A DNA stretch of 64,000 bases from Branchiostoma lanceolatum (lineage: Eukaryota > Chordata > Leptocardii > Amphioxiformes > Branchiostomatidae), in assembly GCF_035083965.1 (NCBI RefSeq), contig NC_089723.1:39997193-40061192 (forward strand). Reading direction: 5' to 3'. Below the pieces are notes generated by a model, which saw only the letters and a program-made list of their open reading frames with translations, ran no database searches and was not told the DNA's origin. Position numbers and translations under genes: made by a program. Positions 9,693 to 53,163 of this stretch are shown here, piece after piece; the first letter of the stretch is position 1, and the number at the start of each line of letters is the position of its first letter.

Positions 9693-12600
9693 CTGGAGAG
9701 TCGAGAAAGGACAATAAGCCGTTTCACGGTTTCAACTGTGCATACGCAGCGAGATGCATTGAGGGCAATATGTCAAAAGTAAATGCCCATAACCTGTGAA
9801 AAGTTATTGTCTATAGAATGCTTAAAACATGCCCAGAGGTGTCTTATTACCCACAATGCATCTCGTTGTGCATGCACATTTTAACCCGTAAACCAGCTTA
9901 TTAGTGGTCATTGTTATGATACTATCCCTCCTCCTAGCTGTGGTTTATATTTCCGTCGATAGGCGTCGCCTTTTCGTCCACTTCTTGAATTACTTCAGAT
10001 TGGTTTGGTTCGACAACGTTTTAAGGTAAATATCTATAATCCGTCTAGGTGGGGTTTTGGCGGGAGTGAGAAGTAACAAAAGTCTTGCTTATTTATGTGT
10101 TATGCCATGTGATAGGCTTGACGGTTGCTTACTTGTGCTGAACGGGACAGGCTTGCAGTACGGCAGCGGGGAGCATGGCGGCCGGAGGCACTGGATGGGC
10201 TGGAGGGCACACACCTCGTACTCCCCACAACTCGTCTCCTGGCGGGAAACCAAACGCACACGAGGTTTAAATGGACAGATATCCTTTATTGGTGACGCCT
10301 CAGGGGCGTGTCCTCCCATGCCAGGCCCCTCACTTGTAATCGTCAAGCAACAGCCTTGGCGTACCGGCCTGCGACCTGAAATTCTCATTGCGTTAGCGCT
10401 GGCTAGCCGTCACGAGCCAATCGCGTCGTCGACTACAGTCAAGAAGCAACATGATTGGCTGGTAACTTTCCCTCAATCAAGAGGAGGGGAGTGTGTGATT
10501 GGCTGACGGCTGGCCGGCGCTTTTGCAGCGAGAAGGGAGGGTCGCTGGCCGGTGCGCCAGGGACCTTGCTTGGCATGTACGAGCAGCAGGTCAGGTATGA
10601 CCGGATACAGGAGTAGATAGTCTCAAAACATGTGTCATGTTTCGCAAACCGCGTTATTTTTTATGGTGCGAGTTGAAGACATGATCCGTACCTTGCAGGG
10701 GTTGTCGCCGCACTCGCAGATCGGGCACTGGTTCTCGTCAAACTTCGGGCCGTACTCGCAGTCCAGATTACAGTCCTCCAGCTGCTCGCAGGTCGGTAAG
10801 GCTCGTCCTACGGTAAAAGGAAATCAGAACGCTACATTGACGCCAGAGGAAGTAATTATTCTCTGCGGTTTATGCCCCAGACCTCAGCTTGAACCAGATT
10901 ATATACTTAAATATTATCACATAATGGCTCGTCAGGACATTTACCTAATAAGGCATACTGCTCGACGTTGGCTGTTACCTAATAAGGCATACTGCTCGAC
11001 GTTGGCTGTTACCTAATAAGGCATACTGCTCGACGTTGGCTGTTACCTAATAAGGCATACTGCTCGACGTTGGCTGTTACCTAATAAGGCATACTGCTCG
11101 ACGTTGACTGTTACCTAATAAGGCATACTGCTCGACGTTGACTGTTACCTAATAAGGCATACTTCTCGACGTTGACTGTTACCTAATAAGGCATACTGCT
11201 CGACGTTGACTGTTACCTAATAAGGCATACTGCTCAACTTTGGCTATTACCTAATAAGGCATACTGCTCGACGTTGACTGTTACCTAATAAGGCATACTG
11301 CTCGACGTTGACTGTTACCTAATAAGGCATACTGCTCGACGTTGGCTGTTACCTAATAAGGCATACTGCTCGACGTTGGCTGTTACCTAATAAGGCATAC
11401 TGCTCGACGTTGACTGTTACCTAATAAGGCATACTGCTGCTCGTTGGCTATTACCTAATAAGGCATACTACTCGACGTTGACTGTTACCTAATAAGGCAT
11501 ACTGCTCGACGTTGGCCATTACCTAATAAGGCATACTGCTCGACGTTGACTGCTTCCTCCTGGTCCTCCTGCACAGCGTTGATGATGGACTCCGACGGCT
11601 CGGAGGTGTCGGGGATCGGCGTCCAGTCCAGGTCCGGGGCCCACCCTGTGCACTCCTGCTGTGCGTGGATGAATGAATGAATGAATGAATGAATGAATGA
11701 ATGAATGAATGACAGGTTTTTGACAATTCACAATAAAATCACATCCAAATACCTTACCATGTCAGCCACAAAGGGGCTGAATAGACCCCTTTCCAAACTT
11801 CGGCGTCAATTTAAATTTGCTCTCGCTAGAACACAACTTGGCGCGAGCGCGCGTGATTTGAGCAGGCGAGCGGTAAGACGAAGAGACATTATCATAATCC
11901 CTGGTGTCTATATTAACCTACACTGACAAACAAGACCAGCTGTCGTTCAACATTTGTACTAAGAACGGGAAAGTAGTTGTGTCAAACCTGGACGTCGTAG
12001 TAGGACGGGAAGCGTGAGCAGTTCATGACGTCAGGCCATTTGAAGCCGTACTGCGTCATGAGGACTGCGCAGCCGCTGTAGCTGCTCTCGCACATCTCCC
12101 TGCACGGCGGGACGGCGTCGGGGGCGTCCTCACGGCACGGAGGGGCGTACAGCGTGCACAGGAACTCCCTGGGAACAGAGAAGTGTTAACACTTAACCAG
12201 GGGCGTCCTGACGGCACGGAGGGGCGTACAACGTGCACAGGAACTCCCTGGGAACAGAGAAGCGTTAACACTTAACCAGGGGCGTCCTCACGGCACGGAG
12301 GGGCGTACAACGTGCACAGGAGCTCCCTGGGAACAGAGAAGTGTTAACACTTAACCAGGGGCGTCCTGACGGCACGGAGGGGCGTACAGCGTACACAGGA
12401 ACTCCCTGGGAACAGAGAAGGGTTAACACTTAACCAGGGGCGTCCTCACGGCACGGAGGGGCGTACAACGTGCACAGGAGCTCCCTGGGAACAGAGAAGT
12501 GTTAACACTTAACCAGGGGCGTCCTGACGGCACGGAGGGGCGTACAGCGTGCACAGGAACTCCCTGGGAACAGAGAAGTGTTAACACTTAACCAGGGGCG

Positions 12601-14616
12601 TCCTCACGGCACGGCGGGGCGTACAGCGTGCACAGGACCTCCCTGGGAACAGAGAAGTGTTAACACTTAACCAGGGGCGTCCTCTCGGCACGGCGGGGCG
12701 TACAACGTACACAGGAGCTCCCTGGGAACAACGGAAATAACTCACTCACTCACTCATGACCCATGACCTCAGTGGAAATAACTAATGATAACAAAAAGGG
12801 CGTACGGCGTACACAGGAAACTTCTGTGGACATGAATAACTGATTTACCAGCATGGGGGACGCACAACGCGTACAAGAAACTCCTATAGACAATAATAAC
12901 TGGTTTTAGCACTTAACCAGCACGGAGGGACGTACAAAACTTCACAAGGCCGTCCTCTTGGCACGTAAGGGCGCACAGGGTGCTAACTCACTTACTTACT
13001 CACTCTTTATCGCTCACCCACGCACACTGTATTCTCCAAGCAGAGGCTTCGATCGAGAGGGGTAGTTTTGTCCGGGATTTTAACGTTCCTCTCCTCTCAG
13101 TGAGAGGAGAGGAACGTTAAAATCCCGGACAAAACTACACCTCTCGATCGAAACCTGTGCTTGGAGAATACGCACACTGCACACACTCACACACTCACTC
13201 ACTCGCTCGCTCTCACACATTACTCGCCATTAAAAGGACCAGTTGTTCACCTGAAGAATGGCGAGCACTCAATCTCCACCAGCGGCCAGAACTGGTGCAG
13301 CTCCCGCCCGACCTCCTCCTGCGTCGCGTGGCCGAGCCCGTTGGGCAGGCGGGTGGAGTTGTAGGGCAGGCCCTGGCACAGAGGGACCGTCAGCTCGTCG
13401 CACCGCCGGCTGCGGTCTACAGCGAAACACGGGAGGATTTACATAGATGTAGCGACATAGTAAACCTGTGTGTATGTATGTGTATGGCCGAGCCCGTTGG
13501 GCAGGCGGGTGGAGTTGTAGGGCAGGCCCTGGCACAGAGGGACGGTCAGCTCGTCGCACCGGCGGCTGCGGTCTGGGGAAAACACGAGGGATGGACATAC
13601 ATGTAGCGACATAGTAAACCTGTGTGTATGTATGTGTATGTCCGAGCCCGTTGGGCAGGCGGGTGGAGTTGTAGGGCAGGCCCTGGCACAGAGGGACGGT
13701 CAGCTCGTCGCACCGCCGGCTGCGGTCTACAGCGAAACACGGGAGGATTTACATAGATGTAGCGACATAGTAAACCTGTGTGTATGTATGTGTATGGCCG
13801 AGCCCGTTGGGCAGGCGGGTGGAGTTGTAGGGCAGGCCCTGGCACAGAGGGACGGTCAGCTCGTCGCACCGGCGGCTGCGGTCTGGGGAAAACACGAGGG
13901 ATGGACATACATGTAGCGACATAGTAAACCTGTGTGTATGTATGTGTATGTCCGAGCCCGTTGGGCAGGCGGGTGGAGTTGTAGGGCAGGCCCTGGCACA
14001 GAGGGACGGTCAGCTCGTCGCACCGGCGGCTGCGGTCTGCAGCGAAACACGGGAGGATTTCATAGCGAAACAGCAAGCATGTACGTTCGTGTGTGTGCTA
14101 GCGTGCATACGTGAGTGCGTATGGTAAAAAGGTAAAGGTACCATAGCCCTTTTGGGGCCGTTGGAGCAGTGGGTTTTTACCCACCGTGTCTAGGGCACGG
14201 TATTGGAAGGCGGAGCCCATCCCTCTCCTTCCACCGCCTTTTACCTCCCCAACCGAAGTCAGGTACCCATTTCTACACCTGGGTGGAGTGAGGAAAGTCG
14301 TGTAAAGTGCCTTTCCCAAGGGCACAACATCGAGACGCATGTCCAGACATGTCTGGGGGAAAGCCGGGATTGAACCCGAGTCTCCTTGTTTGACAGTCCA
14401 ATGTTCTAACCACTACGCCACGGGATGCCACTCACGTGAGTGCGTATGGGCGCGTGTTAAATAAGGAAAGTGTTGTCCATATTTTGGTGGAGTTGTAGAG
14501 CAGGCCCTAGCACAGAGGGACGGTCAGCTCGTCGCACCGGCGGCTGCGTTCTGCGGCAAAACAAGGGAGGATTTCTGCAGTGAAATGGTAAAGCTGTGCG
14601 TGCGTACGTGTATGTG

Positions 14617-14685
<69 letters not shown>

Positions 14686-17600
14686 GCTCAGAAAAAGACT
14701 AAGCGAGTTGTATTCCTGTTCTGTGATGCTTAACTATCTACAGACTATGTTATGTAATTGATTTTTCATGTCTTTCTGTTTACGCTTTCGTCGGGTGCTT
14801 TCACTGACAATGTTATCTTCAATTGCAAGTGTGTCAACGGGATACTGGTGTGGATAATTTGTTTAAAACCATACATAGATGTCACTAAACAAAGCCAAAA
14901 CTTTGAAGTACCGTTTCAGCAGCTCTGGCTACTGTCCCACCCAGAGCGGGCACTGCTCTGTTCTACAGCCTTACCATGGACCCGCATGTCGAAGGTCTGC
15001 TCGGCGTACCCGAACTTGTTGCTGGCCCTGCACGTGTAGACGGCGGCGTGCGCGCGGGTCACATTCCCGAAGAAAAGCGTAGTTCTCGTCTGAGATGGAA
15101 AAGGTGAGTCGGTCTATTATAACAAGGCCTGGGTACAAATTACCACGAATTTTTTTATGCAGATACGTTAATACATGTAATAAGATGTTATGCAACGAAA
15201 AAAAATAAAGAAGGATAGTGGGACGGAAAAATTGCACCTTCCTAAGACAATGTAAGCCGCGAGCTTTTCGGCCCCATTTTGAATACAATCTTGGGATCTC
15301 TATAACTGTTCAATACTTTCTGTTCCATCCCCGGAGAATCATCTCTTTAAAGCTCATCGATCTTTAAAAAAAGTGGCAAGTTGGTCTTATGGCTGTCGAA
15401 AGGTGCTTGAGTGGATCAGACCTTGCCGTCCGGTACTGTACCGGTTATACGTATCAAACAAAACCCATACCCACTCACCTTCCCATGGTCGGTCTCGTAG
15501 ATGACCTCCCAGCCCTGCAGCCCGCCGTCCTCCGGTCTGACCTCGCGGCCGTTAGAGAACCATGCTGGGTACTCCGCTGGGGGGTCTGACGTCACCCGGC
15601 AGGTTAGCGTCACGGAGGAGCCCTCCCGCGCTCGGACGGTGTGGGGACCTTCCCGGTCCACCTCAGGCGCGCCTGGCGTTAACAGAATAATATAAACATT
15701 AACCCAAACCCTAGGGAACCATGCCGGGTAGTCCGCGGGCGGGTCCGCTGTAACCCGGCAGGTTAACGTCACGGAGGAGCCCTCCCGTGCCCGGACGGTG
15801 TGGGGGCCTTCCCGGTCCACCTCGGGTGCTCCTGGCGTTAACAGAATGATAGAAACATTAACCCTAACACTAGAGAACCATGCCGGGTACTCCGCAGGGG
15901 GGTCTGACGTCACCCGGCAGGTTAGCGACACGCTGGAGCCAGCCCGCGCCCGCACGGTGTGGGGGCCTTCCCGGTCAACCTCAGGCGCGCCTGACGTTCG
16001 TTAAAAGAAAAATGTTTCAAAAATGTTACCCCTAACACTAGAGAACCGTGTCGGGTAGTCCATGGGGGGGGGGCGCCGTCACACGGCAGGTTAGCGTCAC
16101 GCTGGAGCCAACCCGCGCCCGCACGGTGTGGGGGCCTTCCCGGTCCACCTCAGGCGCGCCTGGCGTTAACAGAGTGATAGAAACATTAACCCTAACACTA
16201 GAGAACCATGTCGGGGGGTCCGCTGTAACCCGGCAGGTTAGCGACACGCTGGAACCCTCAGACGCACCTGGCGTTAAGAATAAAATAATCTATCAAAAAC
16301 TTCTGCTTCGGTCACAATTGCAACAAGGGGCCCCGTCGGGTAGTTCATGTGGGGTTTTTTCACTCTCGTGGGCCCGTGGGACACCCTGTGCACATGTGGC
16401 TACCGGGCTATTTTTCTGCACGGACGGGCCCCTCGTTGACTTTAACTCCGACTTAAAACCAATCCGGGACCCGATAACAAATAGGTGAACACCGAGATGT
16501 ATCCCACCCCAGGTCCCCAGTACCCGACAGTCCACCGTAGGGAGCTTCCCAGTCCACCTCTTGTGCACCTGGCGTTTACAGGCACATTGATGTGTCAAAC
16601 AACGATAACTTTAAAATCTTTTCCGATGGGGCGAAGGAAAATTATTAGTTATGCCATTGATTAGTAATGATCAATTCTGGAGGATAACCCTCCTGCTCAT
16701 CCACAATGTTTCAATTCATCTATTGAAGACATATTAAGAATCTCCTTCAGATGAATGTGTTACTCCTGCCAAATTAAAGTTACATGTTTTGATAAGGTAT
16801 AACAACAATCCTTGTATATTGTAGCGTTGACCCTGCAATAAGAAATACTTCCTTATGTAAGTGATCGTACGCGCGCGTCACATAACGTTGATATCATATA
16901 CCGTTATGCAAACGTTACGCAAAGGCACCTAGATTAATGGACAGTCCTGTGAGGTAGTAATCTAAATGCAGCCCTCGTAAAGCAAATTATTTATAAATAT
17001 TCTATACCATTGTGAACTGTAATGTTACTAAATTTCACCAGCCATCTTTATTTTTCTACGGTATTGTCATTTTCAAAATATCCAAGCGAAATAATTTTAA
17101 AAAATATGGGGCATAAGGAAACCTCGTCGCTCACCCAGCTCCCATGTGGTCTAGTGGTTAGGATCCGTGGCTTTCACCCACGTGGCCCGGGTTCGATTCC
17201 CGGCATGGGAAGAAGTACTTTTTTTTCCTTCATATACTAAATTTATATTTAGGTTACCAACTAAGCTTCTTTTCATACCAGATTTACGTTATCATGTTAT
17301 CGTATCTTTGTTTATCTCTGAGCAAAATAATCTGCCGCGGGATCAAAAGCCGTCTATCATTCCCTGTAATTTCAGGTAAGGCGAGGTTGCTAATTGTTCC
17401 CATGACATTATGTGTCTTTAGTTGTTATTACACCCTTGGTAATTTTTCGATTTCTATCTAAGAATATTCTAGGCTTTTATGTCGAAATTTATATCTCTAC
17501 ATGCTGAGGAATGTGAAAAATGCATCTTAGAAAAGCTAAAATGTTTCTATTCCATTCTCCTATCATTTTCTCTTAACTTACAGTGTAACAATTTCCTTTT

Positions 17601-20600
17601 TCATTCATTTAATTTATCAATTTTGATTTTTTATTTATCATATTTATCTATTTACTTTAAGAACACAGTTGAGATTCCTGTACCTTTCACGTCGATGTAT
17701 GTCTCCTTGACGGTCTCCGGGAAGTGCGCGCTGGACGCGACGCACTCGTACGAGCCCTCGGCCGTGTAGTCCACCTTGGAGAAGGCCAGCGGGTTCTTTA
17801 AGTATTCGGCCGTGCCCTTCCGTCTCCACCTGGAGAAACCAAAGAGAAGCAAGGTTGTTTTTACAAGTGTAAAGAATACAAAAGCGTCTTAAAGCAGAGG
17901 CTAGTTTTGACTTTATTGTATGTGAGTATTCACCGAAATACTTGTATTTTACCTTGACCATTACAAAACTTTCGTAGTAGTATTCTACTCCATACAAAGC
18001 GAAGAGACCCCGAAAGAACACCTAAGTGTTGCATACTTTGTTTTGACTAGATGCTACTAGCAGTAAGTCTGGTGTTCTATATACATATACAAGTGAAGTG
18101 TCTAATATCTTCACAAAATGTTTTGGGGAATCTATCTGTAATCCATTCCAAGTCACTTGGTTGTTGTTGTAATTACTCGTGTAACAAGATGTTCTCAAAT
18201 CTCTGTAATTATTCATAAATGATATTTGATACTTTCCAAAAATGCTGCGCTTTATCTTGACGTTCTAGAAGCATTGTAATCGCCCTCAAATAGAACAGTT
18301 ACCTTACAAATACACGTAGAATATCTACTAATAATTAGGCTTACATGACAGAGGGCTTGGGGTTTCCTTCAGCGATGCAGTCCAGGTGGAAGGTCTGTCC
18401 GGACCGCGCGTGGATGTAGTCGCCAAACGTCGCCTGGATGGTGGGAGGGGCTGCGGACACAGACACGGACAAGTTAGGGTAGCAGAACACAGTATTTTGC
18501 GTATGCCGTTATGGGGATTAACATGCATGGATAAGATCCCAAAATGGGAAGCTTCGACGCTTCAAGATCAAGAGTAGGGTGCACGAGTATGGTACAAAAA
18601 TCGACTATGTGAACATAAACTCCGGCTCGTTCTCTTTTTATGTCTTTCATAGTGACGACGTCTTTTATATGACTCTTTTCTCTAAGTCACTATATATTTT
18701 GCACGGTTCACCTCTTCCAAGGAGTACAATTGTTGCAAAAAAATAACAGCTGGCGTAAGACCCTGAGAACGAGCCGGATCCTCACATCTGCTTGGAGATT
18801 GGGGAGGTTACAGAGCTATGCTAGGTTTGCGCACCTTTGACCTGCACCGTGAGTGGAGGCGCGGCCACCGCGGTGGAGGCCACCAGCCGGTCCCTGTTGA
18901 TGCACCGCTCACTGCCGCCCGGCAGGGGGAACCTGGGGGAACATATCAGTGTAAACAGGGGGAACCTGGGGGAACATGTCAGTGTAAACAGGGGGAACCT
19001 GGGGGAACATGGCAATGTAAACAGGGGGAACCTGGGGGAACATGTCAGTGTAAACAGGGGGAACCTGGGGGAACATGTCAGTGTAAACAGGGGGAATATG
19101 GGGGAACATGTCAATGTAAACAGGGGGAACCTGGGGGAACATGTCAGTGTAAACAGGGGGAACCTGGGGGAACATGTCAATATAAACAGGGGGAACCTGG
19201 GGGAACATGTCAGTGTAAACAGGGGGAACCTGGGGGAACATGTCAGTGTAAACAGGGGGAACCTGGGGGGACATGTCAATGTAAACAGGGGGAACCTTGG
19301 GGAACATGTCAACGTAAACAGAGGGCCTGGGGGACATGGCAATGTAACAATGACTAGTATAAACAAAATGTCCACGACTACGCTACAAAGACCATCTTAA
19401 AAGCTACTTCAAGAAATGTTACATCATCCCAGTCATCTAGGAGCGGGATGCACAAACACGATCAGAATTGAAAATATATGCAAAACTGGAGATGAGCTGT
19501 GTTAAACAGAACGTACAAATGAGTTGAAAAAATAGAGCTGCGAGAAAAAGAGCGCCAAGGGCCTCACAAAGTAGTCGAGATGCTCGTCGTCGACCTTGAT
19601 AAGAAACCAAGATAAGCATAACATACAAGTCGGTGGTTCAATGAAAGGAGACTAACCTGGAGCAGTCGAGTTGTTCGGGCCAGGGGAAGCCGAACTTGTT
19701 CATGAGCCGGGCGCAGTCGGACCGGCTGGTCTCGCAGAGCGGGCGGCACGGCGGAATGACGGCCCGGGCGCTGCTCTCAGCGTCGTACGGCGGCGTGTAC
19801 AGGTTACACAGGAAGTACCTGCCGGGAACGTAACGTAAGGTTACACAGGAAGTACCTGGGGGAACGTAACGTACAGGTTACACAGGAAGTACCTGCCGGG
19901 AACGCAACGTACAGGTTACACAGGAAGTACCTGCCGGGAACGCAACGTAAGGTTACACAGGAAGTACCTGCCGGGAACGCAACGTAAGGTTACACAGGAA
20001 GTACCTGCCGGGAACGCAACGTACAGGTTACACAGGAAGTACCTGCCGGGAACGCAACGTACAGGTTACACAGGAAGTACTTGCCGGGAACGCAACGTAC
20101 AGGTTACACAGGAAGTACCTGTCGGGAACGTAACGTACAGGTTACACAGGAAGTACCTGTCGGGAACGTAACGTACAGATGGGGATTACATAGGAAATAC
20201 CTGGGGGGAACGTAACGTAAGGTTACATAGGAAGTACCTGGCGGGAACGTAACGTACAGGTTGCACAGGAAGTACGTCATATCGTAAAGCTAGGTTACAC
20301 AGGAAGTGCGTCATATCGTACAGGTTACACAGGAAGTACATCATATCGTCACTGCCGCTCGCATGTACCGAGTCAATCAGTTTTTTAGACATGTCATTCT
20401 TTCTCCATCGCAACCAATCTGTGAGGTAGTCGAACTTTCACGAGGACAGAGTTCCAGCATTGAGGATCTCCTCACATCCACTGTTTGTTTCGGGTGAAAG
20501 GTGCACAGAAATTGAGTGTAGATTCTGATGAGGAGATTTACTTCTTGTGGATAGGTATGAGTCTAGTCAACTCAGAGACAGACAAAGATTTATTTGACAC

Positions 20601-23600
20601 AGTTAGTCAGGTACAAATGCATATTGAAAGCACCATGCATCGTATGCAATAAAGGTGGCCAAATCTGTAGATTTGAATTCCCTAAACCTCCTATAGAGCA
20701 GATATTTTTGTTCGACTCTGTGGCCCAGCAGGACTTTACCGATGAAGAACTGACATCAAATTCTGTAAGGAAGGGCCAAGCTGAATCCTTCCCGAAAGTA
20801 TAAAGAGAAATGGAACAAAAAGTACCAGTTCCTTTAAAGTTACTTGAGTTCTGGTGAGCAGTGCACGTTGGGTTAGTGTTAGGGGTATATATACTTCCTT
20901 AATTGAGTTCAGGTTAGGGTTACGGAGTTCCTTACTTGAGTTCCGGCGAGCAGCGCACGTTGAGTTAGTGTTAGTGTTACGGAGTTCCTTACTTGAGTTC
21001 AGGTTAGTGTTACGGAGTTCCATACTTGAGTTCCGGCGAGCAGCGCACGTTGAGTTAGTGTTAGTGTTACGGAGTTCCTTACTTGAGTTCCGGCGAGCAG
21101 CGCACGTTGAGTTAGTGTTAGTGTTACGGAGTTCCTTACTTGAGTTCAGGTTAGGGTTACGGAGTTCCTTACTTGAGTTCCGGCGAGCAGCGCACGTTGA
21201 GTTAGTGTTAGTGTTACGGAGTTCCTTACTTGAGTTCAGGTTAGTGTTACGGAGTTCCTTACTTGAGTTCCGGCGAGCAGCGCACGTTGAGAAGGGTTAG
21301 GGTTCAGGTTAGGGTTACGGAGTTTCTTACTTGAGTTCCGGCGAGCAGCGCACGTTGAGGAGCGGCATGAACTTGTGCAGGTGCAGGCGGGCCTCCTCCT
21401 GTGACCTATGACCCAGGATGTTGGGGTAGGTTGTCAGGTTGTACTTCAGGTCTCTGCAGGCGGGGATGTAGATCGGCTCTCGGGTGCGGGTCTTCTTTTC
21501 TGTGGGGTGACCGTAAGGTGGAAAATTTAAAGAAAAACGGATCCGGAGAACTTTTCAACAGAACTGTGTCAGCTTACAGATGTGCCCTATGTGACCCTAT
21601 GTGGCAGAGACTGTCATTCTCATATAGGACTGTTATTGTTAAGCTATAGCCGAAGCTGCAGGGTTGGTATCCACTAGGAAGGAGTTTGGAGGGGGTGAAT
21701 GCAAGGACATGAGTGACAAGTACTTTTGCTGAAACGCCTACCCTTCATCTCCAGCGTGACGAGGAGCTCGTTGGAGCCGAATGAGTTGGTGGCCTTGCAG
21801 ACGTAGTCCCCTGCCTGGTGCAGGCGGATGTTGTAGACGGTCAGCACGCTGTTGGTCACTCCGTCCAGCTCCTGCCGCATGATCTTCACGCGGTCAGCCC
21901 GATCTTTCTCAGAGAGAACCTGGGGAGGGAGGTGGCAACATGAGGGAATTCTCATTAGATAGCTCTAAAAAGTGCTTGAAGCTAGACGTGCAAAGCTTAG
22001 GTGTCACAGGTCGTTCAGTGTAATATAACCAGATCTTCTTCTGCGAGAGAACCTGGGAGAAAACGGAGAACGCCGTCAGGACTGACATGACACCAAGTCT
22101 GCAAATTCGTAGAGTGGATCTCGTTGTCACCCAGTACAGTATGGCAGAATTTGATTTTACTTATTAGATCCGAAGATGTGCCTCGACCGACGCTCGCTTA
22201 TCATCGTCTATCGTTTTTGCCCTGTCGTCTTCCAAAATTCCAGATTGTTCAGAGAAAAAAATCTGCCCCGTGTGAGGATCGAACTCACGACCTTCAGATT
22301 ATGAGACTGACGCGCTGCCTACTGCGCTAACGAGGCTGTGGGTAACATCAGGAAGTAAGGCAATAAAGGCGGACACGGTTGGACCATTTCACCAATCACG
22401 GTTATCTATAAAGAACAGGCGCAGTAAATAGACACGTAGCTAAAGCTGGTCGGTAACGTCATTTTGTCCTTCAAGTTTTTCGGAAGGGCAAGGTTGGAAG
22501 AGGTCAGGAGGCTGAGACCATGGTTGGATTTGTGTGACAGAGGGATTGAGTCGGTGGGGTGTGGGAGGGGTTTGTAGGAGGGTGTGTTTGGATTGGTTGT
22601 AGCAGGTGGTATAGGAGGTGTGGTTGGTCTAATGGTCCAGTCGTGTCCGGCTAGCTGCCTGGTGTTTCCCACAGCCTCGTTAGCGCAGTAGGCAGCGCGT
22701 CAGTCTCATAATCTGAAGGTCGTGAGTTCGATCCTCACATGGGGCAGATTTTTTGATGTTCTTTGACCAATGATATACGGGTATAGAGTTATAGAGGTAT
22801 AGGGGGTGTAAACAAACCTTTTCCCCGCCGTGCTCATCCCGCCAGACCCACATGACGTAAGGAGACGGGTCCGCCAGAACCTCGCACACCATGATGGCGG
22901 TGTCGCCCTCCCGCACCATCAGGGTGGAGGAGCCACCCAGCCGCACGATGGGCCGACCTGCCGGGAAACACACACACGGTCAGACTCTAACCCTAACCCG
23001 CCCAGCCGCACGATGGGCCGACCTGCCGGGAAACACACACACGATCAGACTCTAACCCTAACCCGCCCAGCCGCACGATGGGCCGACCTGCCGGGAAACA
23101 CACACACGATCAGACTCTAACCCTAACCCGCCCAGCTGCACGATGGGCCGACCTGAGGACACACAAACACGGTCAGACTCTAACCCTAACCCGCCCAGCC
23201 GCACGATGGGCCGACCTGAGGACACACAGACGGTCAGACTCTAACCTAACCCGCCCAGCCGCACGATGGGCCGACCTGCCGGGAAACACGCGCACACGGT
23301 CAGACTCTAACCCTAACCCGCCCAGCCGCACGATGGGCCGACCTGAGGACACACACACGGTCAGACTCTAACCCTAACCCGCCCAGCCGCACGATGGGCC
23401 GACCTTCCGGGAAACACACACACGGTCAGACTCTAACCCTAACCCGCCCAGCCGAACTATGGGCCGACCTGAGGACACACACACACGGTCAGACTCTAAC
23501 CCTAACCCGCCCAGCCGCACGATGGGCCGACCTGAGGACACACACACGGTCAGACTCTAACCCTAACCCGCCCAGCCGCACGATGGGCCGACCTGAGGAC

Positions 23601-29122: not shown

Positions 29123-29171
<49 letters not shown>

Positions 29172-37307: not shown

Positions 37308-37384
37308 CTCGCACCGTCAAAGCCGCGCCGATGTTGAGGTTTACCGCAAGTCAACACTGGTACCGCCTGAGAGAGCGCGTGGCG

Positions 37385-39010: not shown

Positions 39011-39222
39011 GCCGACGGGCCAGATGGAAGCCAACCGACAAGACAGGAAGGTGCTCCTCAAACAGTCACGGAGAGGGAGGGGCGGGCCACGTGCTGCATT
39101 GCGGATTTAACAATACTCAAAATTAGTTAATTAAGATAAAACATAGAAACATTATTATCATAAAAGGCAGTGGAAAACTGACGTTTGGCTATACATTGAT
39201 AGAATCTAAAATATACTACCAC

Positions 39223-41864: not shown

Positions 41865-41870
41865 TTTATT
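41865..41870 (-). terminator. Candidate polyadenylation signal of the oxidase gene
   Basis: AATAAA on the minus strand, about 420 nt past the stop at 42293. Position is plausible but the hexamer is common by chance. Confidence 0.35.
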
Positions 41871-42292: not shown

Positions 42293-45200
42293 TTACAGTT
42301 TAGACTTCCGTTGGGTTTCAGCCCATCTAACTCTGAACTGATCCCTGGGAAGATCGTAGTCCCATTGCCCTTTGACGATCATCTTTGCTGCCATTCGTCC
42401 GATCTCGTCACATGACTTTGCGGCCCATCCGTTGCCACCCAGAGCCACGCCCAGAGACGGGGTTACCATGTCAACGTACAGTTGTTGGGTCGGCGTCTTC
42501 ACTGTTACGCATGCGTCGCCGTGAACAGAGATCGGCTTAACTCCTGATGATTTAAATTTAAAAAAAGGAAGAAAATATTTTAGCTTCAAAATGACGAAAT
42601 AACCTTCAAATGGTAAACAAATCAGCCCGTCTTTTTTCTTTGCTATAAGCCTGTTTATGCTTTCAACTGCGCATGAACTGCGAGATGCATTGTGGGAAAT
42701 TTGTCAAATGTCGAGGCCCACCACCTGTAAGCAGTTCACGTCTAGAATAAACATTCTACATGTCCAGACGTGTTTTATTTGTGTCCCGGGGGCCTTCAAC
42801 TTCGACATGTCCCCCACAGTGCATTTCTCTGTTCATGAGCAGTTGGGATCATGAACTTCCTTATGGAGAAAAGTTTGTCGCCCCTAGAGCGGTACCATCC
42901 CGGACCTCCCCCTCCCCGTGCAGCAGCGCCTCCCAGCGGAAACCGTACCAAGCACACGTACCTGTGACCAGCTCCAGTAGCGCGGCCGCCATGACGCTGA
43001 CCGCCTCCGGGTCCCCCCCTGAGCGGTACCAGTTCCGGACCTGCTCCTCCCCGTGCAGCAGCGCCTCCCAGCGGAAACCGTACTAAGCACACGTACCTGT
43101 GACTAGCTCCAGGAGCGCGGCCGCCATGACGCTGACCGCCTCCGGGTCCCCCCTAGAGCGGTACCAGTCCCGGACCTCCCCCTCCGTGTGCAGCAGCTTC
43201 TCCCGATGACCGTGGCCGACCTTCATGTAGAACTTTCCTGGAGGGTCGAGCATAAACACAGATCTGGTCCGGATGCAAAAGTCTAATTTTGTGAGATTAG
43301 ATTCATTCATCAAGGAACGTCTTGGACACATGTTGTCTAAACCTTTATTCTAAGACATTGAAGGTGTTCTATTCCGATCCCCCATCCTTCAAATGTTAAT
43401 CTCTATGATATGAAGTTCTGAAGGTGAAGGAACTGTTTTTCCTCACCGTCCGGGTAGCGAATCGGCGGCAGAATGTAGGACTGATTTACTCACCGTCCGG
43501 GTAGCGAATCGGCGGCAGGATGTAGGGCTGATTTACTCACCGTCCGGGTAGCGAATCGGCGGCAGAATGCAGGACTGATTTACTCACCGTCCGGGTAGCA
43601 AATCGGCGGCAGAATGTAGGACTGATTTACTCACCGTCCGGGTAGCGAATCGGCGGCAGAATGTAGGACTGATTTACTCACCGTCCGGGTGGCGAATCGG
43701 CGGCAGAATGTAGGACTGATTTACTCACCGTCCGGGTAGCGAATCGGCGGCAGAATGTAGGACTGCTTTACTCACCGTCCGGGTAGCGAATCGGCGGCAG
43801 AATGTAGGACTGATTTACTCACCGTCCGGGTAGCGAATCGGCGGCAGAATGTAGGACTGATTTTCTCACCGTCCGGGTAGCGAATCGGCGGCAGAATGTA
43901 GGACTGATTTACTCACCGTCCGGGTAGCGAATCGGCGGCAGAATGTAGGACTGATTTACTCACCGTCCGGGTAGCAAATCGGCGGCAGAATGTAGGGCTG
44001 ATTTTCTCACCGTCCGGGTAGCGAATCGGCGGCAGAATGTAGGACTGATTTACTCACCGTCCGGGTAGCGAATCGGCGGCAGAATGCAGGACTGATTTAC
44101 TCACCGTCCGGGTAGCGAATCGGCGGCAGAATGTAGGACTGATTTACTCACCGTCCGGGTAGCGAATCGGCGGCAGAATGTAGGACTGATTTACTCACCG
44201 TCCGGGTAGCAAATCGGCGGCAGAATGTAGGACTGATTTACTCACCGTCCGGGTAGCGAATCGGCGGCAGAATGTAGGACTGATTTACTCACCGTCCGGG
44301 TAGCGAATCGGCGGCAGAAAGTAGAACGACCTCCCTAGGTCTGTGGGGTGCCTGAAGTACATACTGGGCATGCGCTGTAGACGGTCGGCGTCACTGTCGC
44401 TAATCTCCACCTTAAAACCAGAAATAAGACTAGATTAAAGGAAATTGTAGGACTGTGTTTTCTCACCGTCCGGGTAGCGAATCGGCGGCAGTATGTAGAA
44501 CCATCTCCCAAGGTCTGTGTGGTGTCTGTACTGTATACCATACTTGGCATGCGCCGTAGACGCTCTGCGTCACTCTCACTAATCTCCACCTTAAAGACAA
44601 GAGAGCAAATATACATTCTAGGCAAATAGCATGTCCGCAAGAACGGGGCAGTCGGAAAACGTTACTCCCTTTCCTCCAAACATCTGCTTGGTTATTAAGC
44701 TCTTCGTCACATGGATGAAATATCAGAGCTCGGGTATGTTGTAAGGGATTGCATTCGTCATTCCGGATTATGATGTAAAGCTGGCGGTCCCGTACGCGTG
44801 TATGAGGGAGCCTCAGGTGTCCAACCTCTGCATGTTAAGTTCACTTATCGAGGAGTGAGTAGGGGAGACCCGGTGGGCTTGGCTATAAAAGCAGAGCTAT
44901 AACAAAGCTATTGTACGATCAGCTATCAAACAAAGTTACGCTTCTTCTGAAGCATTGCGCTCCGTCTCAAGCAGTACGCTCCATCTCAAACATTACGCTT
45001 CGTTTCAAGCACAAAAATAAGAAGGATGCCGTACCAGCGAGACGGTCTGCCCGGTGAGCCTGACGTCCGGGCGGAGCGCTGCCGGCAGCAGGCGGCGGAA
45101 CGACGTGAAGGCGCCCGTGGCCAGCAGGACCCGTCTGGCGTGTATGACGCCCCCCGTCTCGGTCCGCACGGCCAGGTTGGCGCCTGCACTTCTAGCCCAA

Positions 45201-47260
45201 CTCGCAGGCGGCTCTACTGAGGCAACCACGTCATCAACAACGTCACAGCCCTGAAATGGACACAATTTATCATAAACTACTTGTGAAACAGTTTTGGAGA
45301 CATATTCCCCTTCACTTATGGGTGTATTTCACAACTTAAAACATTTGCGTTGAGCATGTATATCTTGTAGATCACCATATACGATTTATTGCGTGTGATA
45401 TATCATAATATGAGGGGGAAAAGGCTATTAGAGCGGATATTATAAGAACGGGCCCTTACCTGCAGGTGTGCGGCGGTCTGCAGTGCCGCCACAAGTCGCC
45501 TGGGGGAGACGTGTCCGCAGTTCCGGGAATCTAACAGCCCCACCATCCCCGCCCCGATGTCCAGGAACGGGAACCTCTCCCGGGTCTGGGCGCGGGAAAA
45601 CGTCTGGGTGGTGACGTCATGACGTCGCGCGTTTTCCTGCACGCTTCTGACGTAGTCGCCGTCAGGCGAACCGATAACGAGGTACCCGACGTCATGGAAG
45701 AAGTTTATCCCTGAAAAACCGACAGCAAAACTTACATGCTAATTGACCACATCAATATGATGCAACCATGATCATTCCACCAAAAATAGTTTTGTCTGTG
45801 TGTGAGCTCTTCCTGGCTCTAAACTAAATCATCATTGGACCAAAACCGAAGCATACTTCCAATTCTACAAGTACCCTATCACACCACATGCTCCCACAAT
45901 GCAATATTCACATAATGCGGACGCAACAATGACAAACAAACAAACACACCAATGTTGGCTACACGGAGGTAACAAGAATGATAAGGGTACACATGTTGTT
46001 AACACCTCACTGAATGTGCTATTGTTGAACCTCCCGACTACATGGTGATTTGCTGTTGTGACGTATTTCTTACCGGTTTTTCTCTCCAACTCACGATATC
46101 TGCGGATGGATCTCTGCGCAAGTAGTGCCCAGGTCGGGTCAGGGTCAAGGACACGAGTGATGCGGCCTTCGTCGTAATGCGCGCCGAAAATAGTGCGGTT
46201 CATTCGATCCTGGGTGGAATCAGGATAGAAATCAGGAGAAACGTTAACACAAGAGGAGGCCACAAACCCATAATGGGTCTAACCTTGCCGCTACCACAAA
46301 AATACATAACTTATTGTTTACTCTTCACGTAGAGCAAAAGGCCAACATCGGTGGCACAGATCACCTTGTGTACCGAAACATCGTACCTGAATACTGACAA
46401 ACGCACAGAAAAAAAGTCCTGTGGATAATATGAAATTTAAATGTAATGCAGAATCTAGGGGGATTTATAACACAAATTGCACAGAACTTAAGAAGCTCAG
46501 AAAAGAAAATGGTCGAAAGGGGGAATTTGAAATGCATTTCTGATTTCACTCCATCCATGTTAACTGTTCTAGTACAGAGACTGCGAAGATTTGTACCTGG
46601 TCTTGAAGTTGGACTTACAGCTGCTGTACGTGTAACACTCACTTACCTTGAACTTTGAACTCTATTGACAAATCAGCTTGGCAGTCTCGCAGAGAGACTG
46701 AATTGCGCAGACTCACAGTTCACCTTTTCTAAAACTTCATCATTGTTAAAATAACGGTACAAATTTACACAAGACAGTTAAAAATGAACATGACAACATA
46801 TAGTCTCAACTCGGCACCTCAGTACCTTCGGCTCCCCGGGCCCGACCAGACACACCCGGGCCCCGGGGGTCTCGGGGGCGTGCCGGGCGGGTTAGAGTTA
46901 GAGCCAGGGTTAGGGTTGGGGTAAGGGTTAGAGTTTAGGGTTGGGGTTAGGGTTAGGGTTGGGTTAGCCCTCGGGTCCCGGTGTGAACGGTGACTTACCT
47001 GCGGCTCCCCGGGGCCGACCGGACACACCCGTGTGCCGGGGGTCTCGGAGGCGTGCCGGGCGGGTTAGGGTTAGGGTTGGGGTAAGGGTTAGAGTTAGGG
47101 TTGGGTCCTGGTGTGAACGGTGACTTACCTGTGGCTCCCCGGGCCCGACCAGACACACCCGGGCCCCGGGGGTCTCGGAGGCGTGCCGGGCGGCCGCCGA
47201 GCCAATCATGCCCGCCCCGACCACGCACACGTCGTACACCCGGCCTCCTGCAGCAGGCAT
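42293..47260 (-). CDS. Peroxisomal FAD-dependent oxidoreductase, sarcosine-oxidase-like (7 exons, 414 aa)
   Basis: Exons: 47260-47129, 46209-46074, 45710-45460, 45250-45035, 44410-44293, 43237-43097, 42543-42293; all phases close, 1245 nt. The N-terminus has the dinucleotide-binding GxGxxG (GAGMIG, residues 15-20) after VYDVCVV. Exon 2 has the family stretch HYDEGRITRVLDPDP and ARRVLLATGAF is in exon 4. The last exon has GDACVTVKTPTQQ, where the Cys is placed like the covalent-flavin Cys of monomeric sarcosine oxidases (inference), and ends RKSKL, a type-1 peroxisomal signal. Expected reaction is oxidation of an N-methyl or cyclic amino acid with H2O2 release; the substrate cannot be told. 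The ATG has a good context (ACAATGC). Three introns carry repeats of the adjacent donor border. It is transcribed away from the glycosyltransferase at 48641. Confidence 0.88.
42655..42790. mobile_element. Palindromic MITE family B fragment
   Basis: CAACTGCGCATG, GAGATGCATTGTGGG and TGTCCAGACGTGTTTT match the pieces at 9712 and 63885-64000. It lies in intron 6 of the oxidase gene. Confidence 0.5.
42885..43097. repeat. Partial copies of the exon 6 donor half of the oxidase gene
   Basis: A ~143-bp segment with exon 6's last ~110 nt (WYRSRGDPEAVSVMAAALLELV on the minus strand, shown by CGCGGCCGCCATGACGCTGA) and the ACAG|GTACGTGTG donor is repeated once fully (42945-43090) and once partly (42885-42945). 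Single-base indels shift the frame in copies. Confidence 0.85.
43440..44293. repeat. 47-bp minisatellite repeating the exon 5 donor border of the oxidase gene
   Basis: About 19 highly uniform units of CTCACCGTCCGGGTAGCGAA, TCGGCGGCAGAATGTAGGAC, TGATTTA. On the minus strand each has 25 nt of exon 5 and a consensus donor CCGGACG|GTGAGTAAAT. Units differ by a few single substitutions. Confidence 0.93.
44468..44592 (-). pseudogene. Frameshifted duplicate of oxidase exon 5
   Basis: It matches exon 5 (44410-44293) from GTGGAGATTAG to CCGGACGGTGAG, but has a net +5 nt in the middle (after the SMV... point, around 44545) and so loses the frame before the donor. It keeps both splice sites. The downstream copy is intact and phase-correct, and is taken as the functional exon. 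Confidence 0.8.
46825..47129. repeat. Two copies of the oxidase exon 1 donor half with TTAGGG-like spacer
   Basis: GGCTCCCCGGGGCCGACC-type segments at about 46829-46890 and 47000-47065 repeat exon 1's last ~65 nt and the donor region (CAG|GTAAGTCACC at 46999; a mutated AAG|GTACTG at 46828). Spacers are GGGTTAGGGTTGGGGTAAGG. The real donor is at 47129. Confidence 0.8.
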
Positions 47261-48640: not shown

Positions 48641-51600
48641 ATGTCCTCGGTACAGGGAATGTCGTTTTTCTCCTCTCTGTTCATTCTAGCCTTCTGTACG
48701 AACTTTAAACCCGGCCGTCCGGGTAGGATCCTGGTCCCAGGTCCGCCGCTCGGGAGCCGGTGGAGGTTGGTGAACAAAGTGGCGACGGAACTGTCCAGGG
48801 CGGGTCATGACGTCACCATGCTGGTGCCAGACGGGATGGAGGACAACATACGGGACATTGAGAACTTTTCCCTGCTGCTGACGTCACACCCAGAGGCTGT
48901 GCGTTATTACAGAGAGCGTTTGAACAAGCGCCTGAGCATCGCCTTAAACGCTGTAAGGTTTCTCCCCGAGGACGTGTACTCGGCTCTTTCTTATGTCGTC
49001 GATCACGCCGAGCTGTACGAACTCCTTGCGTCCGAATGTGAGGCGACGTTTCAGCAGGGCTTGTTGAACGGCTCGCGGTTCGACCTGGTGCTGTCGGACT
49101 TCCTCTCGCCGTGCGCCGTCATCCTGGCGAGGCACCTGCACGTCCCGGTGGTGTCCGTGGCTCGGGGCACGGCGGGCGGGTACGACCTGTGGGCGGCCGG
49201 AGTCCCCGCGCCCGCCGCGTACATCCCGCAGCTCGGCCTGGCGCTCACAGACGACATGAGCTTCGTGCAGCGCCTGGAGAACTTCGTGGTTCAGCTGGTG
49301 ACGAGCGCGCTGACAGGTAGTGTGCTTTATTCTATTACCTTTGCCAAGAAGGTTAATAACAGTACATAATAATATGTTTTTGGTACCATTTGGATGGATG
49401 TTTTTTTCTGTGAATGTATGACGTTTAGCATCATAACTCAAGAAGCTATGGATGGTTCGTCATGAATCTTAGTACATTGTATGTGGTAAGGTAATCAAAT
49501 ATTTTGGCCTTCTAGCGGCTTTCCTTGGCACTGCAAGAGAATGTTTTGATATATCGTGTTTTATGCAAGCTGTGGTCACGGTTTCGCTGATAGATAGCTC
49601 TCGTTGCAACAACACACAAAGCATAAAATATTTATTTCTTATCGATGAAATTCGTTGGGCACTCGGTGCTTGAATAGCCTGATTTCAATCAAGTACTGTC
49701 ACCGCTCGCTGCCCTGTAACCGCTCGCCGCCCTACGGTTACGCGGGGAGGGGGACGGAAATCCCCGGACAGCTGGAGTTTGCGTTATACAGACTAGGGCT
49801 TAATGCTATGGAACGATTTTTACCTTTACCTCCCCAGGCAGCATGCTGCTTCGTCCGTTCGACGACATCGCCAGGAAACGGACCGGACTCTCCATCCGGG
49901 ACCTGCTGGCGGGCACGGACCTCTGGTTACGTCACACCGACCCGCTGTTCGAGGCGCCCCGGCCGCGCATGCCCAACATGGTCTACATCGGCGGGATCAG
50001 CGCCTCTCCGGCTGAGCCGCTAACACAGGTAGGCTGGTGAAGTCTTGGAGGTACTTTGAATGTTGTTCCCAGGGCTAACCTGGCGGCTAGTAGGGTAGCC
50101 CTGGCTGTCCTTTTTTACACCCAAATAAATGAATAAAATAAAATCATGCTTAGATCACAATTGGACAAAGGGGCCCTGCCGGGCAGCTCACGGACTGTCT
50201 TTTTTTTTGCACTTTTGGGCGTGACCCCTGCGTGACCCTGTGGGGCACCCTGTGGCTACCGGGCTATTTTGAGGCCCGGCCGGGACCCCTAATAATTTGA
50301 ACTCGGACTTCTTCTTTCTTACAGAAAAAAAGGTCATTTTTGTTTTTATTCAAAATGATCCATAATTATATGTTGTCAAAATCTCAAAGAAATCAAATTA
50401 GAATCATAGTTACATCCAAAACGGCTATCTCTTACAGGCGGTAAGATGTCTTTTTAACGTGTGGTATCACAGGTTTTCATGTTTAAATCTCCCCAGGGTA
50501 CACTGTCTCCAAAAATGCTAAACCCCAAGTTCAAGTCTGAATCCATATCGCTATGCAGGAACTTGAGGAGGCTCTCGCCAGAGTGAGGGGAGAAAACATC
50601 GCGGTGGTGACGTTCGGCTCCATGGTGGATCAATTCGATGCACACCTAGCAGAAGTCCTGAGTACTGCACTTAGCCGCTTGCCCTACAAAGTCGTTTGGA
50701 GGTAACCACCAATACTATCTTCTTCTTCTTTTGTCATCCTGTATATCACGGGTTGGGTCGAGTACATTATAAAACATGAATAATAAGGTTAAAGCAGTCA
50801 TCCTCAACTGAGGTGAAGTATTTTGCTTCTTCAAGTAGCTTGTGGACAAGGGCAATGCAGTTTCATTACCGCTCAAGTTTTTAAGCCAAGCACACCGGGT
50901 CAGCTTTACTATTGTCGATGATTGTATTGGGTTCTTTTGCGTGTAGAGGCTTGCAATTGGCGCGTGAGGCTAACTTGCGAAATTGAAATACATCTATTAT
51001 ACTACTTTGCGGCATCACTAACCTAAAGTTGCCATATTGTTTTAGAGGGCTCCTAATACTGGACCTTTTTTCTCAGATACCGCGGGCCGACTCCTCGCAC
51101 CCTCGGCAACAACACCGTCCTACTGCCCTGGCTACCACAGAACGACCTGCTAGGTAACATGACGTCATTGCCACCATCTTTTCTTACCTTTCAAAATGCT
51201 TTTCTTATTCTATCAAAGAAAATATTAAGACGTATAGATTATGCGAACTTACAAATACCAAAATGAATTAGTAAATGGGTTATATTCGAATTGCGTTTAT
51301 TTTCCGTACACGCGTAGTATGTTCGATTCGAACGATTCGAACTCGCTTCGCGTGCGCCGGTGCCCCGTTGTCGAAAATGCCAATACCGAATTCGGACGTT
51401 GGAATCGATGCTGTTATCTTTTTCTTCGAGGACACAAAACTATCTCAACTTCTGGCGCATTTCGCAGTGAAATATGTCTTTTTTCGGGTAGGTACGACAT
51501 AAACAACATTCAACACGGTGTACTCCACTTTATCTTCACATTGTGTAAAGCTATTTCATTAATTTTATTGTAAAGATCGACATAATTCAGTACCAAACTG

Positions 51601-53163
51601 ATAAAATAATTGGAATAGGTGTGCCAGGTGACCAGGTGATCCGCGGACTCACCTGTTTGTGACGCACGGAGGTGCGAGTGGCGTGCAGGAGGCGCTGTTC
51701 CATGGCGTCCCGCTAGTCGGCGCCGTACTACGGTGGATCTAACATTTGGCATTTTTATTCCCCTCTCCCTGTGCCAGGTGATCCGCGGACTCGCCTGTTT
51801 GTGACGCATGGAGGCGCGGGCGGCGTGCAGGAGGCGCTGTTCCACGGCGTGCCGCTAGTCGGCGCTGTTCCACGGCGTGCCGCTAGCTATCAGTCGGCGC
51901 TGTACCACGGCGTGTCGCTAGTCGGCGCTGTGCTACGGCGGATCTAACAGTTGGCTTTTTTTCGCCTCCCCCTGTGCTAGGTGCCCCGCGGACTCGCCTG
52001 TTCGTGACGCACGGAGGCGCGAGCGGCTTGCAGGAGGCGCTGTACCACGGCGTGCCGCTAGTCGGCGCTGTACCACGGCGTCCCGGCAGGAAGCGCTGTT
52101 CCACGGCGTGCCGCTAGTCGGCGCTGTGCTACCGCGGATCTAACATTTGGCTTGTTCCTCCCCTCCCCCTGTGCTAGGTGACCCGCGGACTCGCCTGTTC
52201 GTGACGCACGGAGGCGCTAGCGGCGTGCAGGAGGCGCTGTTCCACGGCGTGCCGCTAGTCGGCGTTCCTCTGTTCCGGGACCAGTTCACCAACATGGCCC
52301 GGGTAGAGTCTCTCGGCAGTGGCAGGGCGGTGCCGCTAGGGGGCCTCACAGCCGACAGGTTATACAGAGCCTTACAGGATGTCACCAGCAACCAGACGTA
52401 CGGTTGTCTTATATTTTTCATGAAATCAATCAGTTCTATATGAAATTAAACATCATTTTGACATTTTAAAGCAAAGTTTCTAAAGGTTTTGAAAATCAGT
52501 AGATTCTAGGAACACTAGAATATAAGCGTACTATAACAATAAGACATTGCACTGTTCATTTTTTAGTCCAGCATAAAGGTTTTCTTGCATATTTGTTTCT
52601 TTGTTTCTTTGTTCGTTCGTTCGTTTGGGCCTTTGTCTACTCAAGAAAAACTAAAATGGGCCTGATGGTCGCTTTTCGTTGAGGTCATGAGAGAAGAGGT
52701 GAGGGTCTGACAAAAGATACATGTTTGAAGTCCGAATGAATACATGAATATATAGTCTTAATAAATCAAATTTGTTAACGTTTCAGCTGTATTTTTATTC
52801 ATTTACGATGACAATGTATTTGTGTGTGTTTTTATCTTTTTGAATCTCAGGTTCGCAAACAAAGCCAGACGCCTGTCCCGCCTGTACAGGGACCAACCCA
52901 TGCAGCGCGCCGTGTGGTGGATCAGTCACGTGATGAGGCATGGCGGACTACCTCACATCCGGTCACAGGCAACGCAACTTCCGGTCTACCAATATCTGAT
53001 GATTGACATTTTATTGTTTTTGCTTTTGTGTATTGGGATCGTTCTCTGGTGTGTTAGAAAACTGTGGAAGTTTGTCCGAATACTTCTAACTAATGCAAAA
53101 TACACGCTGCAATGGGTCCATTCAGTGATAAGGTTCTTCACTCAAAATATGTCCAAAGAGTAA
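48641..53163 (+). CDS. UDP-glycosyltransferase (UGT, GT1 family), 6 exons, 539 aa
   Basis: Exons: 48641-49316, 49838-50028, 50559-50701, 51077-51153, 52178-52397, 52851-53163; phases close to 1620 nt. The N-terminal exon carries a hydrophobic leader ([12 protein letters not shown]) and the acceptor-binding domain. The C-terminal domain has the UGT signature: [30 protein letters not shown] and [30 protein letters not shown] near the end is the membrane anchor, with a short basic tail, as in ER-bound UGTs. Length is usual for the family. The residue after GS in PPLGSRW is Arg40 (48758-48760), where animal UGTs normally have the catalytic His; the Asp partner region [10 protein letters not shown] is kept. 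An upstream in-frame ATG at 48542 exists, but 48641 or 48659 best suits the leader. Three partial copies of exon 5 precede the intact one. Confidence 0.88.
50152..50312. repeat. Dispersed repeat shared with 16308-16475
   Basis: Lies in UGT intron 2 and shares AAGGGGCCCTG, ACCCTGTGG and TGGCTACCGGGCTATTTT with the other copy. A SINE/MITE-like fragment AAGCACACCGGGTC...GGGTTCTTTTGCG also occurs in intron 3 (50886-50945), as at 26398-26450. Confidence 0.5.
51610..52178. repeat. Three partial copies of UGT exon 5 before the real exon
   Basis: Copies begin at about 51617, 51778 and 51981. Each has an acceptor-like CCTGTGCCAG or CTGTGCTAG, then the exon's first ~85 nt ([20 protein letters not shown] coding, GACGCACGGAGG), then GGCGCTGTnCTACGGCGGAT and TAACATTTGGC intron-like sequence instead of the rest of the exon. 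Internal mini-duplications of CACGGCGTGCCGCTAGTCGG occur in the second and third copies. Only the fourth (52178) continues into the full exon and donor. Confidence 0.88.

Follow-up and report, generated by a model that had tools for sequence, protein, structure and literature searches.

Mirage minisatellites at unusual density on the exon-intron borders of three adjacent lancelet genes

The locus and its border-straddling arrays

The stretch analysed here (64,000 nucleotides of contig NC_089723.1 of the lancelet Branchiostoma lanceolatum; hereafter the window) contains three adjacent genes in which tandem arrays repeat an exon end together with the splice site and part of the adjoining intron. 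Such arrays occupy 13 of the 76 modelled exon-intron borders of these genes (15 when decayed ones are counted), so that about one border in six is copied repeatedly into the neighbouring intron as a row of decoy splice sites. They are a known kind of lancelet repeat, the 'mirage' minisatellite, present here at an unusual density. The window is animal DNA and, by the protein matches of the three genes, is most similar to B. lanceolatum. Gene models were drawn up manually on the basis of reading frame and GT/AG borders; all three are in frame, and splice sites throughout are those predicted from them.

The first gene (G1, 6641..36999, minus strand) encodes a protein with a signal-peptide-like start, immunoglobulin (Ig) domains and three Frizzled (FZ) domains, as judged from the in-frame model, orthologues and Pfam (Fz, 3.4e-93, three stretches; Ig_3 and I-set, five stretches each). 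Twenty-two of its exons were modelled to the base, and six downstream exons were placed approximately by tblastn of P0003, the B. lanceolatum FZD8 protein. Over the aligned parts, identity is 97% to P0003, 90% to P0001 (a hybrid-genome record, B. floridae x B. japonicum) and 87% to P0002 (B. floridae x B. belcheri). G2 (42293..47260, minus strand) encodes a PIPOX/sarcosine-oxidase-like flavin adenine dinucleotide (FAD) oxidase in seven exons (DAO, 1e-37; 94% identical over the aligned parts to P0083, the B. lanceolatum PIPOX), and G3 (48641..53163, plus strand) encodes a UDP-glucuronosyltransferase (UGT) in six exons (UDPGT, 6.3e-105; 93% identical over the aligned parts to B. lanceolatum UGT8). 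The closest proteins for all three genes are from Branchiostoma; the host is thus a cephalochordate, as for other mirages. A fourth gene at 55-61 kb, with ankyrin, ZU5 and death domains, was modelled only roughly.

The first-pass annotation had reported 13 arrays straddling splice junctions in three genes, and this description holds: all 13 junctions, seven acceptors and six donors, coincide to the base with GT/AG borders of the in-frame models, and Tandem Repeats Finder (TRF), run blind to the genes, placed an array over each. Orthologous proteins pass through the same borders. In P0001 and P0002, any insert at an array-bearing border of G1 is at most two residues long, and the G2 borders are crossed equally cleanly in five of the six Branchiostoma proteins aligned, the sixth, P0088, being a shorter isoform that lacks one exon. 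At the border of exon 5 (E5) of G3, three Branchiostoma UGTs were compared: P0203 is clean, P0204 carries an insert and P0205 ends before the border.

The arrays of G1 all lie on the minus strand. Its acceptor arrays are those of E19 (junction 12168; array 12121..12730), with eight copies of a 79-bp unit made of 48 exon and 31 intron bp; E18 (13416; 13329..14065), with five copies of a unit of ~155 bp (88 exon, 67 intron) and one decayed copy at 14480-14551; E16 (15672; 15553..16290), with five irregular junction copies of a unit of ~159 bp (120 exon, 39 intron); E13 (18932; 18923..19347), where the scan found 12 copies of a 33-bp unit (10 exon, 23 intron); E12 (19818; 19797..20349), with 12 scanned copies of a 38-bp unit (22 exon, 16 intron); and E9 (22957; 22936..26327), with 54 copies of a unit of ~65 bp (22 exon, 43 intron). 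The E16 array was extended by hand from the TRF limit of 16223, and two false core matches were removed from it, one inside exon 16 and the other at an equal offset in a decoy (15903). Donor arrays are found at E20 (11523; 10941..11552; 18 copies of a 34-bp unit of 30 exon and 4 intron bp), E11 (21331; 20841..21359; six junction copies of a compound 90/147-bp unit with 29 exon bp) and E2 (30988; 30767..31029; three junction copies of a 109-bp unit of 42 exon and 67 intron bp). The intron between E11 and E12 therefore has an array at both ends.

In G2, also on the minus strand, the arrays are at donors: E6 (43097; 42881..43204), with 2.4 copies of a 135-bp unit (108 exon, 27 intron); E5 (44293; 43438..44324), with 19 copies of a 47-bp unit (32 exon, 15 intron); and E1 (47129; 46822..47193, extended by hand from a TRF start of 46910), with two junction copies and a decayed third of a unit of ~130 bp (65 exon, 65 intron). 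G3 has an acceptor array on the plus strand at E5 (52178; 51620..52264, extended by hand from a TRF start of 51685), with four copies of a unit of ~200 bp that includes 87 exon bp.

Unit anatomy and variation among copies

Units range from 33 to ~203 bp and arrays from 2 to 54 copies; the lower ends are those given by the first-pass annotation, and the upper ends exceed its values of ~160 bp and ~50 copies. Each unit combines 10-120 bp of exon with 4-116 bp of intron. Contrary to the first-pass annotation, array starts do not coincide with the exon edge: they lie 10-120 bp within the exon, and the splice site can fall anywhere in the unit. The exon fraction of the unit averages 0.55 and is spread over the range (Kolmogorov-Smirnov test against a uniform distribution, P=0.15), so that the splice site does not appear to determine where the breakpoints fall. 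GC content is higher in the exon-derived part of the units (69%) than in the intron-derived part (51%). In 13 of 13 arrays the predicted true junction is the exon-side terminal copy, all other copies being intronic.

A core scan, after removal of the false E16 matches and with decayed outer copies below threshold left out, yields 137 decoys, of which 135 keep their GT or AG. If used, 124 of them would cause a frameshift or introduce a stop, and 13 would give an in-frame, stop-free product, namely two in the E16 array and 11 in the E13 array, where they make up all of the decoys scanned (11/11). Mirages are natural experiments in splice choice, of one site among up to 54 near-identical ones.

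Variation was counted after array-edge copies and linked blocks had been removed. Among decoys alone, exon-derived sites vary at 0.081 events per site and intron-derived sites at 0.117 (P=0.14). Splice dinucleotides show a non-significant shortage of variants (two variant cells, where other non-CpG pairs predict about 10-12), with P=0.09 when the authentic copy is counted and 0.17 when it is not; earlier values of 0.05 and 0.10 contained one false E16 row. No significant trend indicates polar growth from the exon (internal copies, P=0.18-0.29). The decoys look close to neutral, and constraint on them is not claimed. Two results weigh against near-neutrality: with the authentic copy included, the rates become 0.099 for exon-derived and 0.162 for intron-derived sites (P=0.014, the sites not being independent), and variants favour third codon positions (P=0.014 with the authentic copy, 0.07 without). 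Decoys may thus be subject to weak constraint, or to conversion from the constrained exon.

Two stronger signals were set aside. Conservation of the splice dinucleotide in decoys, at P=0.003 uncorrected, is not claimed after the correction that gave the values above. An apparently strong constraint on the exon part (odds ratio 0.21; none of 2000 circular shifts as low) was largely spurious, being produced by array-edge copies, linked blocks and microsatellite tails.

Excess at borders and the origin of the arrays

Over the whole window, the share of TRF arrays that straddle a border is 13/17 at a period of at least 30 and a score of at least 150, 13/23 at 20 and 60, and 13/30 at 10 and 50. The arrays off the borders thus number four, 10 or 17 according to threshold, and not six as the first-pass annotation had counted. 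For a placement test, each array was collapsed to one unit and placed randomly in the gene spans, wholly exonic placements being excluded. Among genic arrays (period at least 20, score at least 60), 13 of 17 straddle a border where 3.93 are expected (P=1.1e-6). Placement matched for GC content (within 5 points) raises the expectation to 7.06 of 17 (P=2.6e-4), a control that is partly too strict because the unit is GC-rich through its exon part. Omission of the long first intron leaves 13/16 (P=2.1e-6), and addition of the fourth gene, with its approximate model, gives 13/19 against 4.28 expected (P=7.6e-6), or 7.28 with GC matching (P=7.6e-4).

The excess is also seen when decayed families, which were hand-chosen, are added (15/23, P=1.3e-4). 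This count comprises the TRF list (at least 20 and 60), two decayed mirages whose spacings are approximate, and four old families from G1 intron 1; it omits the dispersed pairs 8802-10558 and 9316-9787, a TC run at 29056-29287 and all intergenic families. A scan of the 60 exon bases beside each border for copies in the adjacent intron found same-sense copies at 15/76 borders and inverted copies at 0/76. The same-sense copies belong to every array but that of E13, whose short unit the scan missed (12 of 13), to two decayed mirages and to a pseudo-exon of G2 E5.

Several observations count against a special status of the borders. When 60-bp windows were scored for any local same-sense copy, 15/76 junctions were positive and so were 38/272 intron-interior windows (P=0.21); among interior windows with GC of at least 0.5, 21/76 had a local copy (P=0.34 against the junctions). 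GC matching, moreover, takes away about one third of the excess in the placement test. The excess over chance is present under random and GC-matched placement and disappears in this window control, in which the junction and interior samples differed in shuffle number (100 and 60), 33 of the 38 positive interior windows lie in G1 intron 1 and 21/272 interior windows have an inverted copy. Exon-interior windows with a copy in the flanking intron are 3/37 (13311, 15539 and 52238), all in array-bearing exons. The families nevertheless differ in quality: median best-match identity is 88% for 12 border-straddling families versus 74% for five families of G1 intron 1 (P=6e-4). Local duplication is common in the introns of these genes, and the borders are special for high-identity, short-period arrays. 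Some birth bias toward exon flanks remains after GC matching, with one coarser control showing no excess.

The 13 arrays are mirage minisatellites, probably produced by ordinary short tandem duplication, with tolerance of the border copies, near-neutral turnover and a bias of birth at exons. Slippage or unequal exchange beside exons would give rise to units of 30-200 bp. Where the genome is very polymorphic, conserved exons may anchor homologous exchange between haplotypes, and the residual excess at borders may reflect a higher rate of birth or renewal beside GC-rich, conserved exons, the intact exon serving as a permanent template from which an array could restart. Selection would then purge duplications that are wholly exonic and tolerate those that span a border. 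Both ends of an exon are recognised jointly (exon definition), and the site on the exon side would be paired in this way with the other end of its exon while the decoys are ignored. A duplication would survive only where one exon stays intact together with its border, which would explain the fixed place of the true copy. Once established, arrays would expand, contract and homogenise close to neutrally.

Selection could also be the whole explanation, arrays being born uniformly along the genes, lost from exons and seen at borders because the genes are compact and the exons GC-rich. Several results agree with such a filter: GC-matched placement already accounts for about seven of the 17 arrays, no array lies wholly within an exon (1.8 expected; P of zero 0.14), the flanks that bear arrays are only slightly richer in GC than the others (47% versus 41%, P=0.06), and decayed duplications are frequent in G1 intron 1, with no junction excess in the window count. 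The excess persists, however, through every GC-matched placement and when the hand-chosen decayed families are included, which leaves this account possible but rather unlikely. Selection that tolerates arrays with a working site, one of the explanations offered by the first-pass annotation, thus explains the exon-side position of the true copy and does not by itself explain the excess.

The other explanation offered there invoked a mechanism acting at splice borders. An origin of the duplications in transcription or splicing, whether through R-loops, RNA-templated repair or pausing at splice sites, fits the presence of a splice site in every unit and the involvement of three neighbouring genes, but is not supported and appears improbable. 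Donors and acceptors are affected about equally (six and seven), breakpoints have no fixed offset from the splice site, and no exon-exon (spliced) sequence was found in the junction-centred copies inspected (eight of the 13 arrays in full, and the distinct E9 copies). The sense-strand GC skew is negative in 9/13 arrays (in one only -0.01) and positive in 4/13, which is the wrong sign for R-loops; most of the arrays lack the G-rich non-template strand of R-loop-prone repeats. A function of the decoys, with arrays retained as splice enhancers or for regulated alternative splicing, would suit the near-complete retention of GT or AG, the fully in-frame E13 array and the third-position bias. This proposal too is very unlikely to be right, given that the dinucleotide deficit is not significant, that only 13 of the 137 decoys are in frame and free of stops, that old mirages lose their GT, and that RT-PCR (reverse transcription PCR) of globin genes together with data on Adh3 is reported to suggest regular splicing (PMC3087553). 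Finally, the arrays would not lie at real borders if the gene models or the assembly were wrong, which is scarcely credible: the three proteins stay in frame over all 13 borders and the orthologues agree, and for the PGBD5 mirages PMC3902484 describes support from re-examined Sanger and new Illumina data.

Known mirages, decayed copies and traces in other lancelets

The arrays share the features of mirages described elsewhere in amphioxus: a border-spanning unit in 13/13, AG or GT in nearly all decoys, and a cephalochordate host. The first-pass annotation was correct in recalling a mirage minisatellite at amphioxus Adh. Two globin genes with mirages are described in PMC3087553, which also covers the previously known mirages of Adh3 and cites further amphioxus loci; it reports differences between haplotypes, suggests that regular splicing is undisturbed and proposes mirages as a source of introns. 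The Adh3 mirages (Canestro et al. 2002, via PMC3087553), for which length and somatic instability are reported, are likewise tandem repeats that span exon-intron borders in many copies with AG/GT, but their units measure 10-72 bp against 33-203 bp here, where 13 to 15 borders of three adjacent genes are involved. The globin genes BflGb6 (acceptor) and BflGb9 (donor) resemble the present case in having units that duplicate the border, of 150-160 bp there, and in showing both border types; BflGb6 has six or three copies according to haplotype (PMC3087553). They represent two genes of one family, whereas the present set also includes decayed mirages and permits chance controls and a comparison of how the copies vary.

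PGBD5 also has repeats over splice sites (60 and 108 bp), with copy numbers that differ between two genome versions, but only two arrays in one gene as against 13 in three genes; the same source cites mirages in TnC (PMC3902484). As here, copies of exons, whole or in part, are present in the introns of VCBP3; they are extensively identical to neighbouring exons, and some have canonical splice sites. The passage of PMC2632668 that describes them gives them as data not shown and does not name them mirages. Tandem repeats are mentioned in amphioxus huntingtin scaffolds as well (PMC2206037). Within the search terms used, no genome-wide count of mirages was recognised by title or abstract in the literature searched. 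New here are the density, the quantitative controls, the decayed mirages, the decoy traces in protein models of B. lanceolatum and B. belcheri, and the possible connection between mirages and a change of intron position. Earlier descriptions, in the form given by these sources, proceed gene by gene; the number of affected borders in this window is enough to test what drives mirages and to argue against some mechanisms.

Two decayed donor mirages, both on the minus strand, were found in the downstream part of G1. At E27 (7300; 7090..7331) the true site is followed by two diverged copies ~105 bp apart, one of them without GT, and at E26 (8070; 7805..8105) by two diverged copies, again one without GT. 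TRF missed both; the scan detected one copy in each, and the second copies were read by eye. GT is thus lost in 2/4 decoys, as expected of neutral copies. A weak additional copy of the G1 E10 acceptor lies ~120 bp into the intron (21908-22058; z=3.2, below threshold), and G1 intron 1 (31119-36917) holds many old, diverged local direct duplications of 70-79% identity.

In G2, a whole-exon pseudo-copy of E5 with a broken frame lies upstream of the true exon (44460..44600, minus strand; the copy itself at ~44460-44595). Its second half is closer to the second PIPOX paralogue of B. lanceolatum, P0084, than to the adjacent exon. The intronic copies of E6 (42881-43237) encode RWEALLH, whereas the exon and the B. 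lanceolatum protein P0083 encode HREKLLH; the core RWEALL is common to P0084 to P0088, and RWEALLH is the state in most lancelet orthologues aligned. The E6 duplication therefore appears, from these predicted peptides, to predate the change in the exon, unless the copies derive from the paralogue P0084.

Deposited proteins of B. lanceolatum and B. belcheri carry apparent traces of decoys. In P0003, one insert coincides exactly with the E18|E19 border of G1; another, a tandem insert of 49 residues, corresponds to an insertion at the E16 border, the gap in the alignment falling inside the repeated exon part. Both inserts align to decoys of the window, though not identically, and the E16 unit implied by P0003 falls short of the exon-adjacent window copy by four residues (12 bp). 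These inserts suggest that mirages occupy the same G1 borders in another haplotype and misled its gene model. In B. belcheri P0204, the 20 residues GDRQSRLFVTVSYPSLLKAT are inserted just before the exon start GDRRTRLFVT at the UGT E5 border, and the insert reads like one translated decoy unit of ~60 bp; the same border thus has a mirage-like insert of ~60 bp in that protein and a mirage of ~200 bp in the window. Mirages therefore appear to harm annotation, since the deposited B. lanceolatum FZD8 and B. belcheri UGT proteins both seem to contain translated decoys.

Mirages have been proposed as a source of new introns, and the FZ modules of G1 offer one comparison (regions 11988-13416, 19657-21499 and 28155-29008). 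FZ2 and FZ3 have an intron at a common phase 2 position, with mirages in both. FZ1 lacks that intron and has its own ~43 nt downstream, in phase 0 (aligned by eye), a shift similar in size to the 48 bp of exon in the E19 unit. Speculatively, and with no great likelihood, exons in a hyper-polymorphic genome might anchor exchange, so that their edges keep making mirages, which would become raw material for the shift or birth of introns; the UGT E5 border looks as if it had been hit repeatedly in this way.

Two further arrays adjoin G1. A 14-bp unit is repeated three times at 6607-6649, starting from the last codon and stop of G1 (CCG TAA, then the repeats), and so adjoins a coding border other than a splice site. 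A CpG-rich array of 19.7 copies of an 83-bp unit (37385-39017) lies ~400 bp upstream of the G1 start codon and contains GTGAGT 11 times in the sense of G1; it could be the donor mirage of an untranslated first exon. In the region of the fourth gene, a tandem duplication (59512-60145, 83% identity) includes an ankyrin-repeat exon.

The remaining features of the window comprise a near-perfect palindrome of 143 bp (13029-13171, 95%), a tRNA-Glu gene (17140-17211) and an inverted-repeat segment (22244-22771) with two tRNA-Met genes on opposite strands near its ends. A reverse transcriptase fragment lies at 2386-3348 (RVT_1, 8.3e-30). At the left edge of the window, a 464-bp unit is present in two copies of 98-99% identity (1-932), an array that may extend beyond the window.

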